The translations under genes and the position numbers were made by a program. Shown one piece after another: positions 7,807 to 39,484 of a stretch of DNA of 64,000 nucleotides. Location of the stretch: NCBI RefSeq assembly GCF_009467825.1, contig NZ_WIOK01000028.1, forward strand, positions 1 to 64,000. Reading direction: 5' to 3'. Below the pieces are notes generated by a model. It worked only from the letters and a program-made list of their open reading frames with translations, searched no databases and had not been told where the DNA came from. This stretch comes from Cyclobacterium xiamenense. Its GTDB lineage: Bacteria > Bacteroidota > Bacteroidia > Cytophagales > Cyclobacteriaceae. The stretch's first letter is position 1. Each line of letters opens with the position of its first letter.

Positions 7807-9171
7807 ATGAACCTGACTTTTAATCTTTTGGCTGGCGCAGCTCGTTTGGACATTACCCCTCCCCTCGGGACCATAATCAACGGTGATTTTGTCACACATT
7901 ATGCCCGATCCATTCACGATCCGCTTTTCGCAAAAGCACTCTGGCTGGAAACGGCCCGCGAGGTACTCGTAATTGTGGTGGTCGATATCTGCGTGATGGG
8001 CCAGGAACTGATCGATGAAGCCAAAGGATTGATCCAGGAGCAGCTCTCGGTGCCCCCCGGTGCCATCCTGATTAGCAGCACCCATACCCATGCGGCAGGT
8101 TCGGTTGAGGAAGTGCATCTGGTACCTGCAGACCTGAGTTACCGTCAGCGAATACCCGTTAGTATTGCCCGTGCGGTAAAGGAGGCGGCAAAACGAAAAC
8201 AGCCTGCCAGGCTGGCTTTTGGTTCCGCACAGGCGCCGGAACACCTGCTCTGCCGACGTTTTTGGATGCAGGAGGACTATTACCCACGCAATCCCGTCAC
8301 CGGAGGAAGAGATGCCCTAAAAACCAATCCTTTTGGGGCCGAAAACCATATAATTGGTCCGGTTTCCGACCCGGATCCGGAACTGGGCTTCCTGGCTGTG
8401 CAGGGCATACAGGGAGAATGGATCGGTCTGCTGGCAAATTATTCCCTGCATTACGTGGGAGACTGGGATAACGGTACCATCACAGCCGATTATTTCGGTG
8501 CATTCAGCGAAGCCCTTCGGCAGCAGCTGGGAGCCCACGAATCTTTTGTGGGGATGCTTTCCAATGGTACCAGCGGAGACGTCAATATATGGGACTTCCG
8601 TAACGAAAAACAATACCCGGAAACGCACTTTTCCAAAAGCAAGTACATCGGGGAAGCACTGGCAGCCAAGGTGCGCGCTCAGATTGACACCTTGCGATGG
8701 GAATCCGATCCGGAGCTCAGCTATCGGTACGAAGCAGTCCCAGTAAACCGCCGATTGCCGGATAACGCTGCAATCCAACAGGCAAAGGAACTGGTGGCAG
8801 CGGCCGATTTTGAACGGCTGATTCCAAACCCGGAAGGGCTGCGGTTTTTATATGCGAGGGAGCAGGTTCTTTTGGCGCAGTTCGCTAAAGTGGCAACCTG
8901 CCCGGTCCAACTCTTCTCGATTGGCTCGGGCAGGATCGGAGCCCTGGCAGGGGAGGTATTTGCTGAAACAGGGCTGCAGATTAAGCGGGCGAAAGGTGGC
9001 CGGCCCTATTTTACCATCGGGTTGGCAAACGGCAATCTGGGCTACCTGCCGCCGGCACGCGAATTGGAACGGGGAGGCTATGAAACCTGGCGTTGCCGGA
9101 TCAGTAACCTGGACGGCGAGGCCGAAGAGGTACTTCGGATGAAACTAATCAACTGGATTTCCGGTAGATAG
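7807..9171 (+). CDS. ceramidase-like (PF04734) metal hydrolase, cytosolic paralogue
   Basis: 454-residue member of the neutral/alkaline non-lysosomal ceramidase N-terminal family, lacking a signal peptide and the C-terminal domain of true ceramidases. Zinc-site residues appear kept: STHTHAAG (His93, His95), SLHYVGDW (His215), LAGEVFAE (Glu) and NGNLGYLPP (Tyr). The position of the ceramidase nucleophile, Ser in GDVSPN, is Asn260 in SGDVNIW. It probably hydrolyses an amide or ester on a soluble intermediate; ceramide itself is unlikely for a cytosolic protein. It is the most divergent of five paralogues in the window and the last gene of the catabolic run. Confidence 0.82.
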   Translation: MNLTFNLLAGAARLDITPPLGTIINGDFVTHYARSIHDPLFAKALWLETAREVLVIVVVDICVMGQELIDEAKGLIQEQLSVPPGAILISSTHTHAAGSVEEVHLVPADLSYRQRIPVSIARAVKEAAKRKQPARLAFGSAQAPEHLLCRRFWMQEDYYPRNPVTGGRDALKTNPFGAENHIIGPVSDPDPELGFLAVQGIQGEWIGLLANYSLHYVGDWDNGTITADYFGAFSEALRQQLGAHESFVGMLSNGTSGDVNIWDFRNEKQYPETHFSKSKYIGEALAAKVRAQIDTLRWESDPELSYRYEAVPVNRRLPDNAAIQQAKELVAAADFERLIPNPEGLRFLYAREQVLLAQFAKVATCPVQLFSIGSGRIGALAGEVFAETGLQIKRAKGGRPYFTIGLANGNLGYLPPARELERGGYETWRCRISNLDGEAEEVLRMKLINWISGR

Positions 9172-21423: not shown

Positions 21424-24090
21424 ATGACAAAAGTGCCTAAAAATCGACGAGAATTTTTAAAGCAGGCTTCGGTATGGAGCATGGGGATGTATCTTGGCGA
21501 GCCACTGTTTTCTGAGCGCATGCCCCGGATACCGCATGGCTCCCCTGCCGATCCTCTTTTAGATTGGTCCGACTGGAAGAAATACAGGACTTCGGTTCAA
21601 CACCCCTGTCTGACCATTAAGGAGCAAAATGTCGCCAATGCAAAGGAAAACATCCGAAAGTATGATTGGGCGAAGGTACACGGTACAAGGATTCAGGATG
21701 TTATAGAGAATCACGTAGGACTGATTACGGATGATTTTTTGGAAATGATGATCGAAGAGACCACACCGGGGGACCCACTGTGGACGCCTTGTCCTTCTTG
21801 CAGAGAGAAAGGAATGCCGGTCCATCCCCATGGTTTGTGGCACTGGGATGTGGCCTTGCCCCAACAGATAACCTGTACGGAATGTGGCGAGATTTTTCCA
21901 AATAGTAGATATCCCGAGAACATTGTCTTAAAAACCAACTGGGGCAAACCACAAACGATCAAATTCTACGGGGGAGAACCGTTTCCGGTTTTTGGGTATA
22001 AAGAAGGCAGACCTGCTTTCAGTGCGAATATACGATCCCGGAAGGTTCAATGGATAGCAGGGTTTAGCAAGACGCTGGCGGAGGGTTTTCAGCTTTTTGG
22101 AAATCTGGAATATGCGTTGGCTTGTCGTAGAATCTTGCTTCGCCTTGCGCATTGCTATCCAAATTGGCTGGTTCATGTAGGATACGGTGAATATGCAGAC
22201 ATCGATCCGAAGATAGCGGCCATGACCATCAATAATCTGCCCAGGCCTGAATTGTGTCCTCCCCCGAATAAGCCTGACCACAGTCTTTGGACCGGATATT
22301 GGAGTGCCGGAAGGGCGAGCGGTGTAGGTTTGGAATCAGATTTTATACGAAAAACAGTCGCTGCCTATGATCTTACCTGCAACGCAGGCTATCCGGATGG
22401 TAGCCCTGTGTATTCCACTGCTGAAAAAACAGCTATTGAAAGGGATTTATTACTGGAAAGTACGCTTCTGTTGGTCGGAGACAAAGGATTGAATAACAAA
22501 TCGGTAAGCAACCGGACTGCGGTGGCTTTGGTGGGAAGGTGTTTGGGACATCCGGGCTTGTTCAGGTTTGGACTGGAGGGATTCAAAAAGACGGTAGATG
22601 AATGGTTTTTACCTGACGGTGCCACTAGCGAATCGCCTTTCTACGGCCTGATGACCTTGGGGGGGATTTGGGATATGGCCCAGGCTTCCCTTGGCTATTC
22701 GGATCCAGCAGGTTTCAGGGATAATGAAGGAACGCGCATGGATGATCTAAACCTTTATCGTGACACCAACTATCACCGTGTTTGGGAAGCTTTTTTTAAT
22801 GGCTTGCAGGGGGATTTAGCTTACCCGCCCTATGCTGATTCATTTACCACCACGGGACTTGACGTGGCTTATGTAGAGCTAATGGTAGCCAACTACCCGG
22901 AGAAGGCTTCCTACCGATCCCTTTTGAAAGCATTGTGTACACCAACGCTCTCTCTCCATAGCGGATCGCCTTTATTTACTAATTCGTTCAATACCACTAC
23001 GGTAGATCCTGTTCTTACCTTGCCGTATGATCTTACCAAACCCAACGGATCTTCTTCTTTTTCCCTTTACTACCGCATCCCTGGTCTTGAGCGAAGGGCC
23101 GATGACGCGTTGAATTTACCAGATTGGTGCCCTCCTCACCTTCGGATAGGGCATTTGCGGTCCGGGAAGGACGGCAGAGAAAGTTTACTGTTGCTAAGTG
23201 CAAGCCATTGGGGAATTCACCATGAACAAGACAGCCTAAACCTTTACTACTGGAAAAAGGGAAAAGAATTGCTCTCGGACCTGGGTTATTTATGGGACCA
23301 TCCCAAGAAATCTCAAAACATACGGACCCTGGCACATAACACAGTAGTCCTGAACGAAAAAGACCAGATCAAAGCGGGTAGGGGAGGTGAACCAGTGCAT
23401 TACAAAGTCTTTGAAAAAATAAAGATAATGGAGATGGCTTCCTCGGCATATGTCGAAGTAAGTACCTACAAGCGTACTTCTGTATTGGTTGATCACGGAA
23501 ACGGTCATAATTATGCGGTAGATTTTTTCCGGGTAGCGGGTGGGGAAATTCAGGATTACGTGTTTCATGCTACCGGAGAGATTCACGAAATAAATGGCAT
23601 ACCGACAAGCTCCTGGAAAGAATCCTCCATTTACGACTTTTCAGAAGTGAAAACCGCTGAGGGAAATCACGTATGGGTTACCAAATGGAAAGCTGGGGCC
23701 GATTTAACGGTCGCGGCCTGGTCGGTGGGACAGCTCGGAGAGAGGGTATTCCTTGCCAACGGTTGGGGCCAGCGGGACTGGAAGAATGCAGATATTGGTG
23801 CGACCATCCCCTACATTGTCCGAAGGACAAAAGGAAAAGGCCTCAAGACGTTTATGTCAGTTTTTGAGGGCTTTGAAGGAAACCTGCCCTTCGTGAAAAA
23901 TGTAACCTGCCTGGAGGGATCGGGCATCATCGCCATCGATACCCTCGACGGCAGGGACTATATCATGTCCTGTGATGATTCCGGTGCATTAGCATTTGAG
24001 ACGGCGAAGGGGATTCAAGTCCTCACTGGCCATTTTGCCGCCGCGTCGGTTCGAAATGATCAACTGGTCTGGATGGAATCCATTGACTAA
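21424..24090 (+). CDS. heparinase II/III-like protein, Tat-exported
   Basis: 888-residue probable polysaccharide lyase or related enzyme. The N-terminus has NRREFLKQASVWS, a Tat-like signal. An alpha/alpha-toroid follows, and the C-terminal beta-sandwich carries the heparinase II/III hallmark LAHNTVVLNEKDQ and later HYAVDFFRV-like segments. Two Cys pairs (Cys123/126 and Cys151/154, CPSC and CTEC) suggest a small zinc-binding loop. ATG 21424 is preferred over TTG 21415. It heads the second part of the island, with 270 bases upstream for a promoter. It may cleave uronic-acid glycans; the substrate is unknown. Confidence 0.78.
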   Translation: MTKVPKNRREFLKQASVWSMGMYLGEPLFSERMPRIPHGSPADPLLDWSDWKKYRTSVQHPCLTIKEQNVANAKENIRKYDWAKVHGTRIQDVIENHVGLITDDFLEMMIEETTPGDPLWTPCPSCREKGMPVHPHGLWHWDVALPQQITCTECGEIFPNSRYPENIVLKTNWGKPQTIKFYGGEPFPVFGYKEGRPAFSANIRSRKVQWIAGFSKTLAEGFQLFGNLEYALACRRILLRLAHCYPNWLVHVGYGEYADIDPKIAAMTINNLPRPELCPPPNKPDHSLWTGYWSAGRASGVGLESDFIRKTVAAYDLTCNAGYPDGSPVYSTAEKTAIERDLLLESTLLLVGDKGLNNKSVSNRTAVALVGRCLGHPGLFRFGLEGFKKTVDEWFLPDGATSESPFYGLMTLGGIWDMAQASLGYSDPAGFRDNEGTRMDDLNLYRDTNYHRVWEAFFNGLQGDLAYPPYADSFTTTGLDVAYVELMVANYPEKASYRSLLKALCTPTLSLHSGSPLFTNSFNTTTVDPVLTLPYDLTKPNGSSSFSLYYRIPGLERRADDALNLPDWCPPHLRIGHLRSGKDGRESLLLLSASHWGIHHEQDSLNLYYWKKGKELLSDLGYLWDHPKKSQNIRTLAHNTVVLNEKDQIKAGRGGEPVHYKVFEKIKIMEMASSAYVEVSTYKRTSVLVDHGNGHNYAVDFFRVAGGEIQDYVFHATGEIHEINGIPTSSWKESSIYDFSEVKTAEGNHVWVTKWKAGADLTVAAWSVGQLGERVFLANGWGQRDWKNADIGATIPYIVRRTKGKGLKTFMSVFEGFEGNLPFVKNVTCLEGSGIIAIDTLDGRDYIMSCDDSGALAFETAKGIQVLTGHFAAASVRNDQLVWMESID

Positions 24091-32276: not shown

Positions 32277-32303
32277 GGTTACATTGGTTACATTTGGTAC
32301 CAC
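32277..32303 (+). promoter_or_regulatory. tandem GGTTACAT motif, candidate ECF promoter
   Basis: GGTTACAT occurs at 32277-32284 and again at 32286-32293, 27-43 bases before the sigma factor ATG. The first copy is followed after 13 bases by TACCA; upstream of the lipoprotein at 33824 the same motif is followed after 13 bases by TACAA. This fits an autoregulated ECF -35/-10 pair. TACATTTG (32289-32296) also matches a primary-sigma -7 element, so both readings are possible. Confidence 0.45.
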
Positions 32304-32319
32304 TAAGAAACGGATACTT

Positions 32320-32940
32320 ATGAAAAAAGGTACGGTTTGGACTGACCAGGAACTACTTGACGCACTTGCTGGATCCAATCAGGTAAACGAAGCCATTCTG
32401 CAGCTATATCAAGGTTATTACGCCGTTATGGAGAATTACATCGTTCAGAATAGCGGAACAGCAGCGGATGCCGCAGATACCATACAGGAGACCATGTTGG
32501 TATTTCTCAACATGGTGCAAACCGGAAAATTTCGGGGAGATTCCAGTATCAATTCGGTATTGTATGGTATCAACCGCAACATCTGGCTGACCACGCTAAG
32601 AAAACAAAAGAGTAGGGCTAACCGGGACCGGGCGTATACGAGTGAACAGGAAAGGGAAGTGAAGGATATCAGCAAAACGATGGAGGAAATGGAAGGCTAC
32701 CAATTGGTTTTGTCCCTCTTTGAACGCCTTGGGAGCAAGTGTAAGCGTTTGTTGCACTTATTTTATTACGAAAGCATGTCGATGAAAGAGATCAGCGAAG
32801 CGGAGGGGTATACAAACGAGCAAGTGGCCAGGAATACAAAATACAAGTGCATGAAACAATTAATTGATCGCATCGAAGGCAATCCCCAACTTTACCAACT
32901 GGTAAAAAACGCATTGGAAAATGGAAAAGAAATACGATGA
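32320..32940 (+). CDS. ECF-type RNA polymerase sigma factor
   Basis: 206-residue sigma-70 family protein with only regions 2 and 4. Region 2 spans about residues 22-92, with DAADTIQETMLVFL (core binding and -10 recognition helix) and INRNIWLTTLRKQK. Region 4 lies around 135-190, with YYESMSMKEISEAEGYTNEQVARNTKYKCMKQL as its helix-turn-helix. ATG 32320 is chosen over the earlier frame start because homology begins there. The next gene starts inside it (20-base overlap), the normal layout for an ECF sigma and its anti-sigma. It probably drives its own cluster. Confidence 0.92.
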   Translation: MKKGTVWTDQELLDALAGSNQVNEAILQLYQGYYAVMENYIVQNSGTAADAADTIQETMLVFLNMVQTGKFRGDSSINSVLYGINRNIWLTTLRKQKSRANRDRAYTSEQEREVKDISKTMEEMEGYQLVLSLFERLGSKCKRLLHLFYYESMSMKEISEAEGYTNEQVARNTKYKCMKQLIDRIEGNPQLYQLVKNALENGKEIR

Positions 32941-33709
32941 TCCTTATCTGGTAGAATACCTGGACGGAAACCTCACGTCCGACGAAAAAGAATTGTTCGA
33001 GAAGGAACTGGAACGTGACCCGTCGCTTCGCGATCGGGTGAACCTGTATCGCTACACGCTCCGTGCCATAAAATCCAAAGGATATGAAACGTCTATCAAG
33101 GAGATTCAGCACGATTTTTTGAAACAGCGCATTGAAAACAAGGATTTTACGTCCATTTCCACCCCCAAACTCGAAAACAAGGTACGTCCCTTGCATTTTT
33201 GGGGGAGGATCGCAGCCAGTGTAGCCTTGTTGGGTACCCTGGGTTATGGGTTTTTCCTGCTGCAAAATGACGGCAATCAACTTTTCGAAGCAAACTACCT
33301 TTCCTACGAAATCACGGCGGACCGGGGAGTTGCCGAGCAGGAAAATTTGCTCGAATCGCTTTATTTGAAAGGAGATTTTAAGAACATGTTTCAGGCAATC
33401 GAGGGGAGTGAACCGGAAGCATATAGCTCGATGGAACTATTACTATTGGGTGCGGCCGCTTTGGAACTAAATCAGCCATCGGAGGCGTTGCGTTACCTAC
33501 AAACGCTGGAAGCAGAGAATGCCAGCAACCAAGCCGATAATTTTCAAGACGAGGCGGACTTCTACATGGCACTTGCGTATTTGAAACAGGAGGCGTATGA
33601 AGACGCGCTACGAATGATCAAAAAAATAAAGGGAGACGATCAGCACAAATACCGCTCCAGCTTTTCCTGGACAGAAGAGTTGAGCGTTCGCCTGAAAACC
33701 CTTCGTTAG
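32921..33709 (+). CDS. single-pass anti-sigma-like TPR protein
   Basis: 262-residue protein whose start lies within the sigma gene. The N-terminal cytosolic part (1-88) is charged, with YLDGNLTSDEKELFEKELERDPSLRDRV resembling the N-terminal helices of Bacteroidota anti-sigma factors, but without the HxxxCxxC zinc motif. One transmembrane helix follows (about 92-115). The periplasmic part (about 116-262) has helical TPR-like repeats (SLYLKGDFKNMFQAIEG, ALRYLQTLE, ALAYLKQEAYEDALRMIKK). I infer that it holds the sigma factor at the membrane and that its TPR part receives a periplasmic signal, perhaps from the TPR-CHAT protease encoded nearby. Confidence 0.72.
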   Translation: MEKKYDDPYLVEYLDGNLTSDEKELFEKELERDPSLRDRVNLYRYTLRAIKSKGYETSIKEIQHDFLKQRIENKDFTSISTPKLENKVRPLHFWGRIAASVALLGTLGYGFFLLQNDGNQLFEANYLSYEITADRGVAEQENLLESLYLKGDFKNMFQAIEGSEPEAYSSMELLLLGAAALELNQPSEALRYLQTLEAENASNQADNFQDEADFYMALAYLKQEAYEDALRMIKKIKGDDQHKYRSSFSWTEELSVRLKTLR

Positions 33710-33769
33710 GTGTCCCAGAGGCCGATCCAGATCAGTATCTAAAATTTTTTCATTTTTTTTTCGGATAGT

Positions 33770-33795
33770 GGTTACATCTTTCTGCCTGGGTACAA
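33770..33795 (+). promoter_or_regulatory. GGTTACAT motif upstream of acidic lipoprotein
   Basis: GGTTACAT (33770-33777) is followed after 13 bases by TACAA (33791-33795), the same spacing as upstream of the sigma gene. The ATG of the lipoprotein lies 46 bases after the motif. Candidate promoter for the ECF sigma factor encoded in this cluster. Confidence 0.42.
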
Positions 33796-33823
33796 CCAAA
33801 GGAAAACTAAACAACGTAAACAA

Positions 33824-34603
33824 ATGATACACAAACAAAAAAATCTGATTTCGGCAATTGTTCTGATGTTGTTCTTCGCCTCGATAGGCTGTACTCCCGA
33901 GGAGGATATCGTACCCGGAACCGGGGACGGAACCATGGGACTGCTTTTTAAATTGCAAGGAAATTCGACTACGGCCGCCAATGCCAGAACAAACGCAACA
34001 GGGCTACACTTTACCGATGGGTTTATTCAGATCCAGGAACTTGAATTGGAATTGGAAGGGGATTTCGATACGGAGGGTTTACCTGCGGCCGGGTCCTTCG
34101 ATGACGATGACGACGAGGATGGAGACGAGTGGGAATACGAAATCGAGTTTGACGAAATCAAAAAGGTTACATTTGACCAATTTGACAGCGATGCGGATTT
34201 CTTTATTCAGATTCCGGAAGGCATTTATGAGGAAATTGAAATGGAAATAGATCTGATTGACTATCAAAACGAGCCTTCCATTCAATTAAACGGCACCTAC
34301 ACAAATGGTGACAATGAGGAAGTTCCATTTAGGTATGAATATTTTGGTGACGAAATCGATTTTGAAGTGGAAATTGAGGCAGAAAATGGTGGTTTTCGGG
34401 TCGATCGGGTTAACAATCCACTTATTCTCTTCGAGCTTATTCCTTCCCGTTGGTTTTCCACGATCAGTGGCGCGGAACTGGACGATGCCGATTTGGATGA
34501 AACGGGCGTAATGGTCATCAGTCGAACAAGTAACGTCTCTATTTATAGAAAAATAAGCGATAAGATCGCGGTAGACGCGGAAATTGAAATTGAGATTGAT
34601 TGA
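33824..34603 (+). CDS. acidic lipoprotein, DUF4382-like
   Basis: 259-residue predicted lipoprotein: hydrophobic signal and lipobox ASIGC (Cys about 23), then a very acidic beta-rich body. A run FDDDDDEDGDEWEYEIEFDE lies near residues 91-110. The general pattern (lipobox, GxxLxFKLQG, LHFTDGFIQIQELEL, then IPEGIYEEIEMEI) resembles DUF4382-type carboxypeptidase-like lipoproteins of Bacteroidota, but I am not certain of the family. It is the third gene of the sigma-factor cluster and has its own GGTTACAT motif. It probably faces the periplasm or cell surface and could bind Ca2+ through its acidic stretches. Confidence 0.7.
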   Translation: MIHKQKNLISAIVLMLFFASIGCTPEEDIVPGTGDGTMGLLFKLQGNSTTAANARTNATGLHFTDGFIQIQELELELEGDFDTEGLPAAGSFDDDDDEDGDEWEYEIEFDEIKKVTFDQFDSDADFFIQIPEGIYEEIEMEIDLIDYQNEPSIQLNGTYTNGDNEEVPFRYEYFGDEIDFEVEIEAENGGFRVDRVNNPLILFELIPSRWFSTISGAELDDADLDETGVMVISRTSNVSIYRKISDKIAVDAEIEIEID

Positions 34604-34612
34604 TTTGCTTGG

Positions 34613-37414
34613 TTACCTGTTAAAAAGTCCGGGTTTTCCCGGGCTTTTTTTCGACAACCACCAAGCGAAGATGAGAGGAGCCGGCAAAAGCGAAAGGTAC
34701 CAAAACCGGATCCATGCGGGAGCCGGTTCGGTGCTGTTACCAATAAATACCAAATTAGCCCAATAGTACGGATGATGAAATTGAGCCATTTCGGGATCAT
34801 TTCTCAGGGCATTTTTGGCCCGCTGCAATGCAACTGGAAAGCTGTATCCCCGATCCACCCAACGATAAAACTCCTGGCTAATATAAGCGGTAGCTTTGTC
34901 ATTGGCTTTCCAGATACTGCTAACGACGTTGGAACATCCGGCGTACGAAAAGGCCCGGGACAAACTAATCAAGCCTTCGCTGGCGATCAAGGTGCCGGTG
35001 TGCGTTTGGCAGGCGCTTAGAAATACCAGTGACGTGTTTTGAAGGTTTAATTGATACAATTCTTCTGCATACAGCAGGTGGTCGGTTTCAGCGGGCGAAA
35101 AAACGATGAAGGGATCCGTGCCGGGTTTGGATGAGGAAAACGCGTGGGTAGCCAGATGGATCAGCGAAGCGCTTTCGGAATGTTTTAGAAATTCCGTTTT
35201 GGTAGCAGATTGGCCGGTGAAAGCCAGACCCGCCAGGACATCAATTTCGGATCCGGAATAGGGTAGTGGTTCGAATGCAGGATGGGGCATGGAATCCTGA
35301 CCGGTGAAGGGAGCAAAGCCCAATCTTTGACCTCCGGCCGGTTTTTCTGAATCCTCGTGAAGGAATTTGCCAGAATAGAGGTACGAGAGGGCATGGTTTT
35401 CGACCAGAAATTGTCCTGCCGGATCCAGCATCATGTCAAAAGGAACGTGAACGAGAATCTGATCCGGCAGGATGATCCAATCGCGGTAGTCTTCGATCTC
35501 CGTGTAAGCTTCGGCAATCACTTGTTGGAACGCTTTGGTAGCTGCCGATTCCAGGTCTTTTCGGCGATTTCCTCTGGAATTGAGTACAGAGGATTGGAGT
35601 GTTCGGATGGTCGAGGTGACGGTCGCTTTTTCGCTGCTCTCGGCTAGTTTCAACCCCTGCGGAGTCAGGGTAAAACAAAAAACATCGTCCGCCGCGAAGA
35701 AGTACGAAAGAACTGCTAGATTGTTCGAATTCACGTGGGACTGAAGCGCGGAAAATTCAATGCGCTCGGCAGCTATCTTTTCGGAAAAATACACGGTAAA
35801 ATCGTTATAGGAAGCGTACAGCCGACTTAGCGCCAGCTTGCTATCTCGTACGGCGGCCTCGAGTTCTTCGGCCCGTTTGGGAGAATAGTTTTCCATCAAC
35901 TGCCTATTGGCACGGGTCAGCTGAAATTTTAGGGTCTTTTCTTGTTGAAGAAGTTCGGGTGGAATGCCGGCCTTTTCTTTTATTCGGGCCTCGTTACGTG
36001 CGAGTTCCAGTGCGGTGGCTTTGCTTTCTTCTGCCCAGCTGAAGCCTTGAATTAAATCATTGGGATCGTTGGTTTGTTTGTAACGGTCTATGGCGGCCGC
36101 TACTGCCGATTCGTAGCCTTTGCGTACGGCCTCGCCCAAAAATATCCGTGCTTCTTCATTGTCGTACAAATTATTCATGTAAAACACCAAATCGAAAGCC
36201 GTTTGGTAGGTGTGAAAGGACAGCCGATGCAGCGAAACTTCCTGGGTTTCCTTTGCCAATAAACCCGCGGTCTCTGCTTTGAGTAAAAGGGTCTCAAAGA
36301 GGTCGGTCATTCCCCAGTTTACATTTCCCGGCATAGGGTTCTGAAAAACATCCGTTTGCTGGAAGCTTTCATCAAAACTTAGTAGGGCAAGGTGGAATGA
36401 TTGAAGCGCTTTCTTGTATTGTTTTTTTTGATGCCATGCTTTTCCCAGTAATTGGAATGATTCCCCGTTTCGGTAATTGTTCGCAGTTGGCGTGTTCGTT
36501 CCGGGGTTCATTTCTTTTGTTGCCGCATCTTGCAGCAAATCGATCACTTTATCGGGCTGATTTGTCAACAGGTAAATATCAGCCAGGATATTCTGGTGGA
36601 GTCGATTACCGGCGGCCGCTTGTTGCTCGGTCTGTTGCAGGTAATAAAGTGCGGTGTCCGGCGCATTTTTTTCTACATATAGTGCGGCCAGCTTGCGCAT
36701 GATTTCATCCCTGTCAATGGTTAGCTCCAATGCCTGCGTGTATAGATCGGCCGCTTTGGTAAAGGCGTTTAGGTTGGTCCATGCGGCTGCTTCGTTGCTG
36801 AGCAGGCTAAATAAGGCGTATTCTGTGGCGGTAGAATTATCCAGAGACCGGTCCTCCAGCAGGGCTGACTTTGCCTTGGAGAAGTAATTGACAGCCTGGG
36901 TGTAATTACCCGATTCGTAGTAGATAACGCCGAGAGAGTTGTAGAGCCTCCCCGTTTCGTTTTTATCGGCTTTGGTGCGTAAGGCTGCTTCCGCGCGGTT
37001 CAGGTAAAAAATACTGCTATCCGCCTGATTCATTAAAAAGAAGTTTTCCCCCATAAACAAATAGGAATGGAAGAGCAACGAGTCCGATAGGTTGTTTTTC
37101 CTGGCAGTTAGAATTCCCTTTTTAAGGGTTTGTATGCTTTTTTCCGGCGCGTTTTGGATTAGGAAAAGCGTGCCTAGCTTTTCGTAAGCGTCTAGCAAAA
37201 CGGTGTCTGGTACCATCCCGTCTGCCTGGGCTTCAATGATCCCCTGGAACAAGTGCATGGCGCTACTGTCGGTTTTTGCGTCCGGGACTTCGGCATAAAA
37301 ATAGGAAACAGCTGCCTCGTAGTTCTCCAACCAATCGCTTTCCTGTCCCATTCCTGCAACAGGTAGAAGCAGGAAAAAAAATGATAGATAGTGTATGCAC
37401 CGGGTTTTATCCAT
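34613..37414 (-). CDS. exported TPR-CHAT protease, membrane anchored
   Basis: 933-residue protein: Sec signal (1-23), about ten TPR units (roughly 30-400), a helical linker, and a CHAT (caspase-like) domain at about 640-895. The catalytic dyad is visible: His757 in HLATHAF and Cys802 in LVFLSACQTHTG. A C-terminal transmembrane helix (about 901-919) is followed by a basic tail. TPR and CHAT parts should thus lie in the periplasm, tethered to the inner membrane. It is 20 bases downstream of the poly-Asp lipoprotein gene and convergent with the sigma/anti-sigma genes. CHAT proteins are cysteine proteases that cut specific partners; the target here is unknown. Confidence 0.88.
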   Translation of the reverse strand: MDKTRCIHYLSFFFLLLPVAGMGQESDWLENYEAAVSYFYAEVPDAKTDSSAMHLFQGIIEAQADGMVPDTVLLDAYEKLGTLFLIQNAPEKSIQTLKKGILTARKNNLSDSLLFHSYLFMGENFFLMNQADSSIFYLNRAEAALRTKADKNETGRLYNSLGVIYYESGNYTQAVNYFSKAKSALLEDRSLDNSTATEYALFSLLSNEAAAWTNLNAFTKAADLYTQALELTIDRDEIMRKLAALYVEKNAPDTALYYLQQTEQQAAAGNRLHQNILADIYLLTNQPDKVIDLLQDAATKEMNPGTNTPTANNYRNGESFQLLGKAWHQKKQYKKALQSFHLALLSFDESFQQTDVFQNPMPGNVNWGMTDLFETLLLKAETAGLLAKETQEVSLHRLSFHTYQTAFDLVFYMNNLYDNEEARIFLGEAVRKGYESAVAAAIDRYKQTNDPNDLIQGFSWAEESKATALELARNEARIKEKAGIPPELLQQEKTLKFQLTRANRQLMENYSPKRAEELEAAVRDSKLALSRLYASYNDFTVYFSEKIAAERIEFSALQSHVNSNNLAVLSYFFAADDVFCFTLTPQGLKLAESSEKATVTSTIRTLQSSVLNSRGNRRKDLESAATKAFQQVIAEAYTEIEDYRDWIILPDQILVHVPFDMMLDPAGQFLVENHALSYLYSGKFLHEDSEKPAGGQRLGFAPFTGQDSMPHPAFEPLPYSGSEIDVLAGLAFTGQSATKTEFLKHSESASLIHLATHAFSSSKPGTDPFIVFSPAETDHLLYAEELYQLNLQNTSLVFLSACQTHTGTLIASEGLISLSRAFSYAGCSNVVSSIWKANDKATAYISQEFYRWVDRGYSFPVALQRAKNALRNDPEMAQFHHPYYWANLVFIGNSTEPAPAWIRFWYLSLLPAPLIFAWWLSKKSPGKPGLFNR
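34626..34651 (+). terminator. intrinsic terminator of the acidic lipoprotein gene, inside the CHAT gene 3' end
   Basis: AGTCCGGG (34626-34633) pairs with CCCGGGCT (34638-34645) around a TTTT loop, with one G-T pair, and is followed by T residues to 34651. It starts 22 bases after the lipoprotein stop. The same DNA encodes the last residues of the convergent CHAT protein. Confidence 0.75.
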
Positions 37415-37434
37415 AAAGCCATTTGTCGCCGCAA

Positions 37435-38376
37435 TTACCGCGCGAGGCGCGAAACAACGACCAGGTAAGGCGGCCTAGGTCTTCGTGTTTCGGGCGAAAA
37501 TCGGCGGGTTGTTCTGGGTGTGCTAAAGTTAAAACGCATGGTTGATGCAGAAGGTTTGGCAGATACGATTTGCCCTTGTTTTTCCTGGATTTCGTTGATG
37601 AGATCCTGGGGCACATCGTCCATGGTTTCGAAATAAAAGAATTTTATTCCCAACGAATTCAACGCGCGCATGCTGCCATCGCTGAGCCGGTAGTAGAGGG
37701 TAACGTCTTTTTCGGTGCCGTTTACTGGTTGGACTCCAAAGAAATTATTTTCAAGGCTTTGTTGGAGGTCAATTATCCCGGTTTGATTCCCTACGATCAG
37801 CCCTTGATCCGCCAGGCGTTCTCCGCCGGGACCCACTTCGTCAAACGCACACTCGTCGTCATCGCTATCCTCGTCATCGCTATCCTCGTCATCACTGTCA
37901 TCATCGTCATCGTCATCATCATCGTCGTCATCCTCACATACGGGCAGCGCAGAAGGAGTTCCATTAAAAACAGGTACTACCGTCGCAGCGCCCTGGTCCA
38001 CCACATAGATACCATCCAGGTAATTGATACCGCCTATGCTTACAAAAAACTCACAGGTAGTTTCACCCTGGCTAAAGCTAACCTGGTATTTCAATCCGGT
38101 TTCGCTGGCATTGATATCGATGGTGCCGGTTTGGGGATCAATGACCAACCCTTCTGGAAACACCGAAAAAGTCCCCGATCCTTCAATACCTACCGGATTG
38201 ACAAAATTATCCCCGGTTTCTGTAATAAAGAAAAGCGTATCCGGATAGGCGAAGCCCGTACAATCTTCCATAGCAGGACCGTTTCGAAGATCGGCCTCTG
38301 TCTGCTCGGGATCACAAGATATCCAGGTTAAGCAAAGGAGCAAAAGAAAATAGACGAAATAGCTGTGAGAAACCAT
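37435..38376 (-). CDS. lipoprotein with poly-Asp tract
   Basis: 313-residue predicted lipoprotein from ATG 38376 (MVSHSYFVYFLLLLCLTWISC, Cys about 21). An upstream in-frame ATG at 38400 is less likely because the candidate promoter motif would sit only 13 bases before it. The N-terminal half has IDPQTGTIDINASETGLKYQVSFS, resembling cadherin/Ig-like putative-binding repeats. A run of Asp with Ser and Glu (about 28 residues) follows, then an unrecognised C-terminal domain ending in a Pro/Arg-rich tail. It heads the transcript that continues into the CHAT gene. It could be a surface sensor or CHAT substrate; no function is known. Confidence 0.72.
   Translation of the reverse strand: MVSHSYFVYFLLLLCLTWISCDPEQTEADLRNGPAMEDCTGFAYPDTLFFITETGDNFVNPVGIEGSGTFSVFPEGLVIDPQTGTIDINASETGLKYQVSFSQGETTCEFFVSIGGINYLDGIYVVDQGAATVVPVFNGTPSALPVCEDDDDDDDDDDDDSDDEDSDDEDSDDDECAFDEVGPGGERLADQGLIVGNQTGIIDLQQSLENNFFGVQPVNGTEKDVTLYYRLSDGSMRALNSLGIKFFYFETMDDVPQDLINEIQEKQGQIVSAKPSASTMRFNFSTPRTTRRFSPETRRPRPPYLVVVSRLAR
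37852..37935 (-). repeat. trinucleotide microsatellite encoding the poly-Asp tract
   Basis: 84 bases of GAT/GAC codons with interspersed AGC/GAA-type codons, coding mostly Asp with Ser and Glu. In-frame triplet repeats of this kind change length by slippage without frameshift, so the acidic linker may vary between strains. Confidence 0.8.
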
Positions 38377-38412
38377 GGGTAGTTTTCTTGTATGTCGCAT
38401 CGGAATCGAATC

Positions 38413-38420
38413 ATGTAACC
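38413..38420 (-). promoter_or_regulatory. GGTTACAT motif upstream of the poly-Asp lipoprotein/CHAT transcript
   Basis: On the minus strand this reads GGTTACAT, preceded by T as in the other two units. It lies about 44 bases before the ATG chosen at 38376, comparable to the 43-54 bases in the other two transcription units. The downstream half-site seen there is only weakly matched here. Confidence 0.38.
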
Positions 38421-38557
38421 AGAAATCTCATAAAAAAGATCATTTTGGTGTAATAATTGTAGCCATTTTTTTTGTGTGAGTCAAATACAATGGATGAGAA
38501 GCTGCCTTTTTTTGGTTAGGCTATATTTTTTTGAACGAAAAGCTACACCTAAAACAG

Positions 38558-39484
38558 ATGGATGCAATGAATACCCCCAAATTACTTGAAACAGTACTGG
38601 ATAAGCTGGAAAAATGGCTCACTGCTTTGGTAGCCTATTTACCGAATCTTGTCCTGGCTATTTTAGTTTTTATGGTTTTTCTTTTCTTCGCCCGTTTCGT
38701 CGAGCGTTTTTCTAAGAAGCAGCTGATCAATGTACATCTGGATGAAACGATTAGCCGTTTTTTGAGCCGCCTGATCTTCCTTGGAATAATGGTAGGAGGA
38801 CTAATGCTGGCACTGTCTATCTTAAACCTTACCGGTACAGTCACGTCCATTCTTGCCGGACTTGGGATACTTGGCCTGGCTCTGGGATTTGCCTTTCAGG
38901 ACACGGCGGCCAATTTTATGTCCGGTATTTACATTACGTTTCAGCAGCCCTATGCCATCGGGGATGTGATCGAAACCCACGACGGCATCATGGGTAATGT
39001 GGTGGACGTAAACTTGCGGGTGACCAAGGTAAAAACATTTGATGGTCCGATGGTGTACGTTCCAAACCGATTCCTTTTTCAAGAAAATTTCATTAATTAT
39101 ACGGAAGCAGGTAGAAGAAGAATACGGATAGATTGTGGGGTAAGCTATGGAGAGGATTTGGAGCTGGTAGAGAGAGTAGCCTTGGAGGCCGTCAGTGATG
39201 TGCCCGGAAAAATAGAGGGGGAGGATGTTTCCCTTTTTTGGAAGGGGTTTGGCGATAGTTCCATAGATTTCTCGGTCAATATTTGGCTGGAATACACCCG
39301 TGAAAACCGGGCCTATATTGTTGCAAAAAATCAGGCGATTAAGAATATCAAAAAAGCGTTCGATGAACACGGGATTACCATCCCTTTCCCCATTCGTACG
39401 CTGGATTTCGGCATCAAGGGAGGAGAAAAATTCTCCGAACAATTGACCAATGCCCAGGTTTCCTTTCGCAATAAACCGGACTGA
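38558..39484 (+). CDS. MscS family mechanosensitive ion channel
   Basis: About 308 residues. Three transmembrane helices (approximately 23-45, 62-85, 92-115), the third being the pore-lining helix with GLGILGLALGFAFQDTAANFMSG, the MscS signature rich in Gly and Ala. A cytosolic beta-domain follows (GDVIETHDGIMGNVVDVNLRVTKV, VYVPNRFLF), then the C-terminal alpha/beta domain. Length is near E. coli MscS. It should open under membrane tension to release solutes on hypo-osmotic shock. ATG 38558 and 38567 are both possible. The neighbouring CsbD gene also points to stress. Confidence 0.93.
   Translation: MDAMNTPKLLETVLDKLEKWLTALVAYLPNLVLAILVFMVFLFFARFVERFSKKQLINVHLDETISRFLSRLIFLGIMVGGLMLALSILNLTGTVTSILAGLGILGLALGFAFQDTAANFMSGIYITFQQPYAIGDVIETHDGIMGNVVDVNLRVTKVKTFDGPMVYVPNRFLFQENFINYTEAGRRRIRIDCGVSYGEDLELVERVALEAVSDVPGKIEGEDVSLFWKGFGDSSIDFSVNIWLEYTRENRAYIVAKNQAIKNIKKAFDEHGITIPFPIRTLDFGIKGGEKFSEQLTNAQVSFRNKPD

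Follow-up and report, generated by a model that had tools for sequence, protein, structure and literature searches.

A conserved five-gene cassette of Cyclobacterium xiamenense with an ECF sigma factor, an anti-sigma-like protein and a putative TPR-CHAT protease sharing one promoter

In the genome of Cyclobacterium xiamenense, a five-gene cassette encodes an extracytoplasmic function (ECF) sigma factor, an anti-sigma-like protein, two lipoproteins (A and B) and a tetratricopeptide repeat (TPR) protein that carries a CHAT peptidase domain. The cassette lies within the first 64,000 nucleotides of contig NZ_WIOK01000028.1 (assembly GCF_009467825.1), a stretch referred to here as the window. The genes for the sigma factor, the anti-sigma-like protein and lipoprotein A follow one another in that order on the forward strand and converge with a reverse-strand operon in which the gene for lipoprotein B precedes the CHAT gene. 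The original prediction, made from the DNA sequence, had described the same set, namely a sigma gene overlapping the gene for a TPR protein, a lipoprotein gene and, convergent to these, a CHAT gene preceded by that of a poly-aspartate lipoprotein, and this gene content is confirmed; the range that it delimited, 32277 to 38420, is exactly the interval between the first and the last copy of a promoter shared by the cassette. The existence of the cassette and of its shared promoter is regarded as close to certain.

The first promoter copy (32277–32306, forward strand; GGTTACA-N16-CCACTAA, one mismatch to the consensus) precedes the sigma gene (32320–32940, forward), whose short product of 206 amino acids scores 63.0 bits against TIGR02937 (cut-off 42.9) and matches the Pfam profiles of sigma regions 2 and 4 below their cut-offs only; related loci are present in relatives. 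A 20-nucleotide overlap joins it to the gene of the anti-sigma-like protein (262 amino acids; 32921–33709, forward), for which a cytoplasmic N-terminus, one transmembrane segment and a periplasmic TPR domain are predicted. The match of this protein to the anti-sigma profile NF052375 is weak (26.3 bits, below the cut-off of 100), and 11 of 37 members of its family match the profile at E 0.001. In the AlphaFold model, a helical N-terminus is followed by a helix (residues 91–115) taken as the transmembrane segment, a loop and a domain that matches TPR folds (Foldseek, best E 0.013), with loop residues 131–140 modelled at low confidence (mean predicted local distance difference test score, pLDDT, of 58). 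By hydropathy counts over relatives, which were used here for topology in place of a trained predictor, one central transmembrane segment is found in 34 of 39 family members, the window protein itself falling under the cut-off. The protein is a candidate transmembrane anti-sigma factor, which would bind the sigma factor. In one relative (L229), the anti-sigma-like protein seems, as read by eye, to hold a trypsin-like domain of its own in its periplasmic part.

The TPR-CHAT protein (933 amino acids; 34613–37414, reverse) matches PF12770 at 174.1 bits (cut-off 24; E 5.8e-51) and carries a His/Cys dyad, H757 (codon 35144–35146, reverse) and C802 (codon 35009–35011, reverse), both of which are invariant in all 29 rows of the CHAT alignment and in all 92 CHAT proteins paired with an anti-sigma. 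Pieces shorter than 800 amino acids were left out of the local alignment, and the CHAT proteins of L067 and L072 were removed from the profile rows by choice. On the strength of the intact dyad, the window protein is considered a putative active protease. A signal peptide and a C-terminal anchor are predicted: the N-terminus is hydrophobic in 31 of 32 relatives, the window protein included, and a C-terminal transmembrane segment is found in 29 of 32, the window's own C-terminal segment lying below the hydropathy cut-off. The dyad described originally is intact, and the hydrophobic N-terminus is in keeping with the signal described there. The catalytic domain and the TPR domain of the anti-sigma-like protein are thus predicted to share one compartment, the periplasm. 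When the CHAT profile was compared with chains of the PDB, the best 60 matches were TPR or other repeat proteins, and none was a CHAT protein or a separase. One full-length CHAT gene and one TPR-type anti-sigma were found in the C. xiamenense genome, which also encodes an M50 site-2-type protease. Contig C14 of the same genome (L002; 134652–134873) has a 125-amino-acid open frame matching the C-terminal part of the CHAT protein only, possibly a remnant, and in genome G377 (contig C37, 156–193 kb) eight tandem CHAT-like matches cover the last part of the profile only, some with internal stops.

Lipoprotein A (33824–34603, forward) is acidic and weakly DUF4382-like (hits to this family in 3 of 18 members, lowest E 0.0058), and its alignment has a mean column identity of 54%. 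It has its own promoter copy (33770–33799, forward; GGTTACA-N16-CAACCAA, one mismatch). Lipoprotein B (37435–38376, reverse) comprises an Ig-like domain, an Asp-rich linker and a C-terminal domain, and the promoter of the lipoprotein B–CHAT operon (38391–38420, reverse; GGTTACA-N16-CGACATA) matches the consensus exactly. Because the listed ATG at 38400 is upstream of the −10 element of this promoter (38397–38391), translation probably starts at the internal ATG at 38376; the poly-aspartate lipoprotein gene reported originally is retained with this probable new start. The structure model of lipoprotein B (pLDDT 80) matches Ig-, cadherin- or S-layer-like structures with low template modelling scores, and 8 of 27 family members, the window protein not among them, hit He_PIG with E values of 1 or less (lowest 2.2e-5); a PDB sequence search with both lipoproteins gave nothing useful. 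We infer that the two lipoproteins probably sense a signal or gate the CHAT protein.

The original prediction had called for a search for the gene set in relatives, and the neighbourhood proves to be conserved. Among 37 named loci with lipoprotein A, 26 contain all five genes, contig ends truncate 2 and the other 9 lack the cassette, and the 26 complete cassettes span Cyclobacterium, Algoriphagus, Aquiflexum, Cognataquiflexum, one Belliella and other genera. Around the best sigma matches of 196 genomes of the family, 40 loci were fetched, of which 31 contain a CHAT match (one cut at the end of the locus) and 16 the complete set of five when compared directly with the proteins of the window. 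Pairs of lipoprotein B and CHAT genes are found also in other families of the order, and CHAT relatives at E 1e-5 are present in 169 of the 196 genomes. The nine loci with lipoprotein A and no cassette (L081, L082, L084, L086, L087, L089, L090, L091 and L096) belong to Belliella, Cecembia and Indibacter and have no promoter copy; L086 and L091 hold two copies of the gene. In loci of the Algoriphagus type, two or three genes lie between lipoprotein A and CHAT, which in L110 match DUF2490, weakly a P-loop family and an ABC-transporter domain (Pfam), with a similar set in L052. This set, inserted between these two genes or placed close to the cassette, lies at 2339–5293 in L110 and at 8793–12431 in L052 and, judged by gene length, also occurs in L099, L100 and L104; in L175, an exact promoter match lies upstream of the DUF2490 gene.

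The shared promoter, GGTTACA-N16-CGACnwA, is found upstream of the sigma gene, of lipoprotein A and of the lipoprotein B–CHAT operon, both in the window (sites at 32277, 33770 and 38420) and across genera. When up to two mismatches are allowed, a copy is found before 39 of the 58 sigma genes, 28 of the 41 genes for lipoprotein A and 30 of the 51 for lipoprotein B, and before none of the 55 anti-sigma or 58 CHAT genes, both of which stand second in their operons; shuffled upstream controls gave 0 or 1 match per gene set. Eleven of the 13 lipoprotein A genes without it lie outside cassettes. Most of the sigma genes that lack it belong to more distant loci, but that of L056 in C. lianum lacks it too. 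In 833,578 bp from 60 loci, the 16-nucleotide spacer gave 32 exact matches and 63 with at most one mismatch, compared with 0 and 16 for 17 other spacers (8 to 25) taken jointly, an enrichment that measures the sharpness of the motif and not its independent proof, as the motif was derived from largely the same loci, and in which a few sites may count twice where the locus pairs L049/L126, L052/L127 and L072/L129 overlap. A one-mismatch match also precedes another MscS-like gene in C. lianum (L144), with near-identical matches to that site listed in three further Cyclobacterium genomes; an MscS-type channel gene flanks lipoprotein B in Cyclobacterium (window 38531–39484).

A genome-wide regulon drawn from the motif alone was rejected, as in the genome of C. 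xiamenense the reversed control gave 23 matches at one mismatch and the motif 13; for this reason, only sites conserved before orthologous genes were used. Such a site was found distant from the cassette, before a gene for a hybrid histidine kinase (HisKA, HATPase and receiver domains) that is present in all 12 Cyclobacterium genomes. In the eight of these genomes with a cassette-type CHAT gene, the promoter lies 57–63 nucleotides before the kinase gene in every case (seven exact, one with one mismatch), and it is absent from the four genomes without such a CHAT gene, where the best match in 260 upstream nucleotides has four or five mismatches; these four may stem from one shared loss and hence represent a single event. 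From the autoregulation typical of ECF sigma factors and from co-occurrence, we infer that the cassette sigma factor reads the GGTTACA promoter. As the promoter is common to the sigma operon, lipoprotein A and the CHAT operon, the CHAT protein is very probably an output of this sigma factor as well, which would constitute feedback. Neither the common promoter nor its reach to the distant kinase gene formed part of the original prediction.

The association of the CHAT protein with this type of anti-sigma extends beyond the cassette. A wide set of 135 distinct TPR-type anti-sigmas was assembled from 180 loci, partly from 80 loci taken top-down among the matches listed, with proteins of at least 300 amino acids or with E above 1e-12 left out. 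A CHAT gene is present in the fetched stretch for 102 of them and within 3 kb for 91, the arrangement being convergent in 62 of the 102 and in line downstream in 21. Another type of anti-sigma, which follows related sigma factors and has an acidic or proline-rich periplasmic linker, has a CHAT gene nearby in 0 of 27 cases, compared with 7 of 12 TPR-type anti-sigmas in the same 40 loci, which were hand-picked, some of them known to be near CHAT genes, and do not form a random sample. At the genome level, a TPR anti-sigma was counted by hand, among the matches listed for these related genomes, in 123 of the 169 genomes with CHAT and in 5 of the 27 without it. Absences are not firm, since the best 4 CHAT and the best 13 anti-sigma candidates per genome were scored, and the p-value of the corresponding test serves as a rough indication. 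Next to anti-sigmas without a CHAT gene, one peptidase (M20, beside L066) was found in the 20 of 154 listed proteins scanned, and the neighbour of one such anti-sigma (L312) is a TPR protein cut by the contig end, possibly a truncated CHAT protein.

A candidate cleavage site lies in the juxtamembrane periplasmic loop of the anti-sigma-like protein, at R135-G136 (codons 33323–33328, forward). Of 37 aligned anti-sigmas, the most distant of which share 18% identity with the window protein, 36 have Arg at the position of R135; two anti-sigmas of L072 had been removed from the alignment by choice. The sole exception, with Trp, is a C. lianum locus in which the sigma and anti-sigma genes stand between their usual LacI and MscS neighbours without CHAT or lipoprotein genes; the species also has a second, complete cassette. 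Within the wide set, the loop has Arg or Met before a small residue in all 91 anti-sigmas near a CHAT gene (Arg in 76, Met in 15), the residue after Arg being Gly in 36, Ser in 28, Asp in 7, Asn in 3 and Glu in 2; L263 was counted as Arg-type by this pattern, and its aligned pair looks like Leu-Ser. The pair occurs in 2 of 27 anti-sigmas of the other type. Where the CHAT gene is 3–6.5 kb away, Arg is found in 5 anti-sigmas, Leu in 4 and Met in 2, and the two of 135 anti-sigmas with none of these residues both lack a CHAT gene in the locus, one being the Trp site of C. lianum. At the level of the class, 28 short loci, 8 of them with a CHAT domain, were judged by eye to have Arg in 18 (one then followed by Leu), Met in 9 and neither in 1 (L325).

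According to two reports, Csx30, the sigma-inhibiting protein of type III-E CRISPR systems, is cut between residues 427 and 429 (M427) in one system and after L407 in another (PMC10028731, PMC9729208), and separase is described in one of them as cutting after ExxR (PMC9729208). By analogy, the Arg, Met or Leu of the loop may correspond to the residues at these cuts. On the side of the protease, D839 of the CHAT protein (codon 34898–34900, reverse), a supposed S1-pocket acid, stands in the place of what we take to be the arginine pocket of separase. A difference at this position between the two kinds of partner was predicted beforehand, and Asp is found in 75 of 76 CHAT proteins with an Arg-type partner and Glu in 15 of 16 with a Met-type partner; L300 is an independent match, and L230 and L348 (Met-type) and L240 (Arg-type) are exceptions. 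The predicted covariation is thus weakly supported.

Taken together, these observations are consistent with a mechanism in which the ECF sigma factor would be held at the inner membrane by the anti-sigma-like protein, whose TPR domain would lie in the periplasm, until the membrane-anchored, separase-like TPR-CHAT protein cuts the loop adjoining the membrane on its periplasmic side, R135 being the residue most likely to precede the cut. General intramembrane proteases and their cytosolic counterparts would then clear the remaining stump, as happens with RseA, and the freed sigma factor would transcribe its own operon, lipoprotein A, the lipoprotein B–CHAT operon and, in Cyclobacterium, the hybrid histidine kinase gene, resulting in positive feedback together with an envelope output. 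That the CHAT protein opens the anti-sigma lock in this way, with feedback, is the best single explanation and is considered slightly more probable than not. The original prediction had already proposed a CHAT cut followed by sigma release, and the conserved neighbourhood, the predicted compartment, the dyad, the linkage and the candidate loop speak for it, while the cut, its site and the release would be the steps reached by deduction.

Several observations weigh against this mechanism. The pattern shared by all 91 loops was fitted after the alignment had been viewed and was sought in an 11-residue segment; the strict alignment column is Arg in 68 of the 91, shuffling of a wider stretch yields an Arg/Met-small pair in 38 of the 91, and many Met-type anti-sigmas also have Arg followed by Ala or Gly about 10 residues downstream. 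The Met-type CHAT proteins mostly form one clade, so that the tree gives too few independent changes at position 839. Among 33 anti-sigmas whose fetched locus has no CHAT gene, 31 retain Arg, which could therefore owe its conservation to a different protease or to a structural function. The Trp locus of C. lianum has diverged generally, its sigma gene having no promoter, so that Trp may reflect decay. The motif is at one mismatch no commoner genome-wide than its reversed control (exact matches, 37 against 11 in 20 chosen genomes), and a CHAT protein under the control of the sigma factor could also be purely an effector. In the reports on Csx30, alanine scanning found no essential residue, the protein accepting alanine at each position tested (PMC10028731, PMC9729208).

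The alternative that survives best makes the CHAT protein an output only, with an envelope protease of the DegS/HtrA kind cutting at the conserved Arg and the CHAT protein processing lipoprotein B, lipoprotein A or damaged envelope proteins. It accommodates the position of CHAT behind a sigma-type promoter together with lipoprotein B, the pairs of lipoprotein B and CHAT genes in fetched loci where no sigma gene was detected (L111, L113, L114, L115 and L117) and the persistence of Arg in anti-sigmas without a nearby CHAT gene. However, TPR anti-sigma genes stay close to CHAT genes in various arrangements, including loci in which lipoprotein B was not detected (L065, L070 and L072), the other anti-sigma type is not linked to CHAT, and Arg is missing at the C. 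lianum locus that lacks CHAT; this account is regarded as possible but unlikely. A second alternative involves no cut: the CHAT protein would bind the TPR domain of the anti-sigma through its own TPR arm and titrate the inhibitor. This would suit two proteins that both have TPR repeats and are predicted to share a compartment, but the invariance of H757 and C802 in all 92 paired CHAT proteins would be unexpected for a pure binder, which leaves this account very improbable. A mere neighbourhood, in which an ordinary ECF operon travels with an unrelated surface-protein operon, might be imagined from the commonness of CHAT relatives in the family and is the least credible account in view of the common promoter, the kinase promoter elsewhere in the genome and the linkage to 91 of 135 TPR-type versus 0 of 27 other anti-sigmas.

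If the lock is indeed opened by the CHAT protein, a relative of the protease that separates chromosomes may serve bacteria as a means of turning on genes, and separase-like proteases would have a natural and widespread non-CRISPR task in bacteria, the opening of anti-sigma locks outside the inner membrane. To our knowledge, few targets of CHAT proteases are known, and the loop would suggest a substrate motif for these enzymes as well as a model for the choice of cut sites by separase. A search of the open literature found no account of this gene set among the titles and abstract openings listed; subscription papers and preprints were outside its scope, and absence from print is not established.

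Among known systems, the RseA/DegS/RseP pathway combines a transmembrane anti-sigma, a first periplasmic cut near the membrane and an autoregulated sigma operon. The arrangement proposed here would share these three features and differ in its first protease, a cysteine protease of the separase/CHAT group that is itself a probable sigma target. A further comparison leads to Geodermatophilus, an actinobacterium. This genus provides a listed example of ECF54, in which CHAT, subtilase and carboxypeptidase genes lie near the ECF gene and proteolytic control without an anti-sigma has been proposed (PMC8999054). CHAT genes near ECF genes have thus been noticed before, and what is new here is the one promoter common to the sigma gene, lipoprotein A and the lipoprotein B–CHAT operon; unlike ECF54, the present cassette has an anti-sigma-like gene overlapping the sigma gene, and it is set apart on the basis of its gene content. 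Separase is a eukaryotic protease that cuts cohesin and is inhibited by securin. It resembles the CHAT protein in its helical arm, its caspase-like domain and the Arg at its cut site, which here is a candidate (PMC9729208).

The closest parallel is offered by the type III-E CRISPR systems (Cas7-11, Csx29, Csx30 and CASP-sigma), which, as described in two reports, likewise combine a TPR-CHAT protease with an ECF-like sigma factor and a protein that inhibits it in one locus, and share sigma motifs within the locus that suggest autoregulation and a cut in a small flexible loop (PMC10028731, PMC9729208). The cassette had been predicted to lack any CRISPR part; in agreement, no CRISPR-like array was found in window positions 24000–46000 and no CRISPR effector match among the five proteins, the search for Cas7-11 having been extended neither to the remaining genes of the window nor to the genome beyond it, and PADLOC gave weak matches only for the five proteins (Csa3, E 0.038, for the sigma factor; TPR, E 0.0044, for the CHAT protein). 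The cassette thus differs from type III-E loci in having no CRISPR-like array nearby, a protease predicted to be periplasmic and membrane-anchored, a transmembrane TPR anti-sigma in place of Csx30 and two envelope lipoproteins. More tentatively, periplasmic CHAT proteins might constitute a large, class-wide family of switches in which they serve as site-1 proteases for TPR anti-sigmas, cutting after Arg, Met or Leu, and the Csx29–Csx30–sigma triad might derive from this older module as a captured form that works in the cytosol and responds to RNA in place of an envelope signal; if true, this would give the CRISPR protease–sigma module a testable origin.

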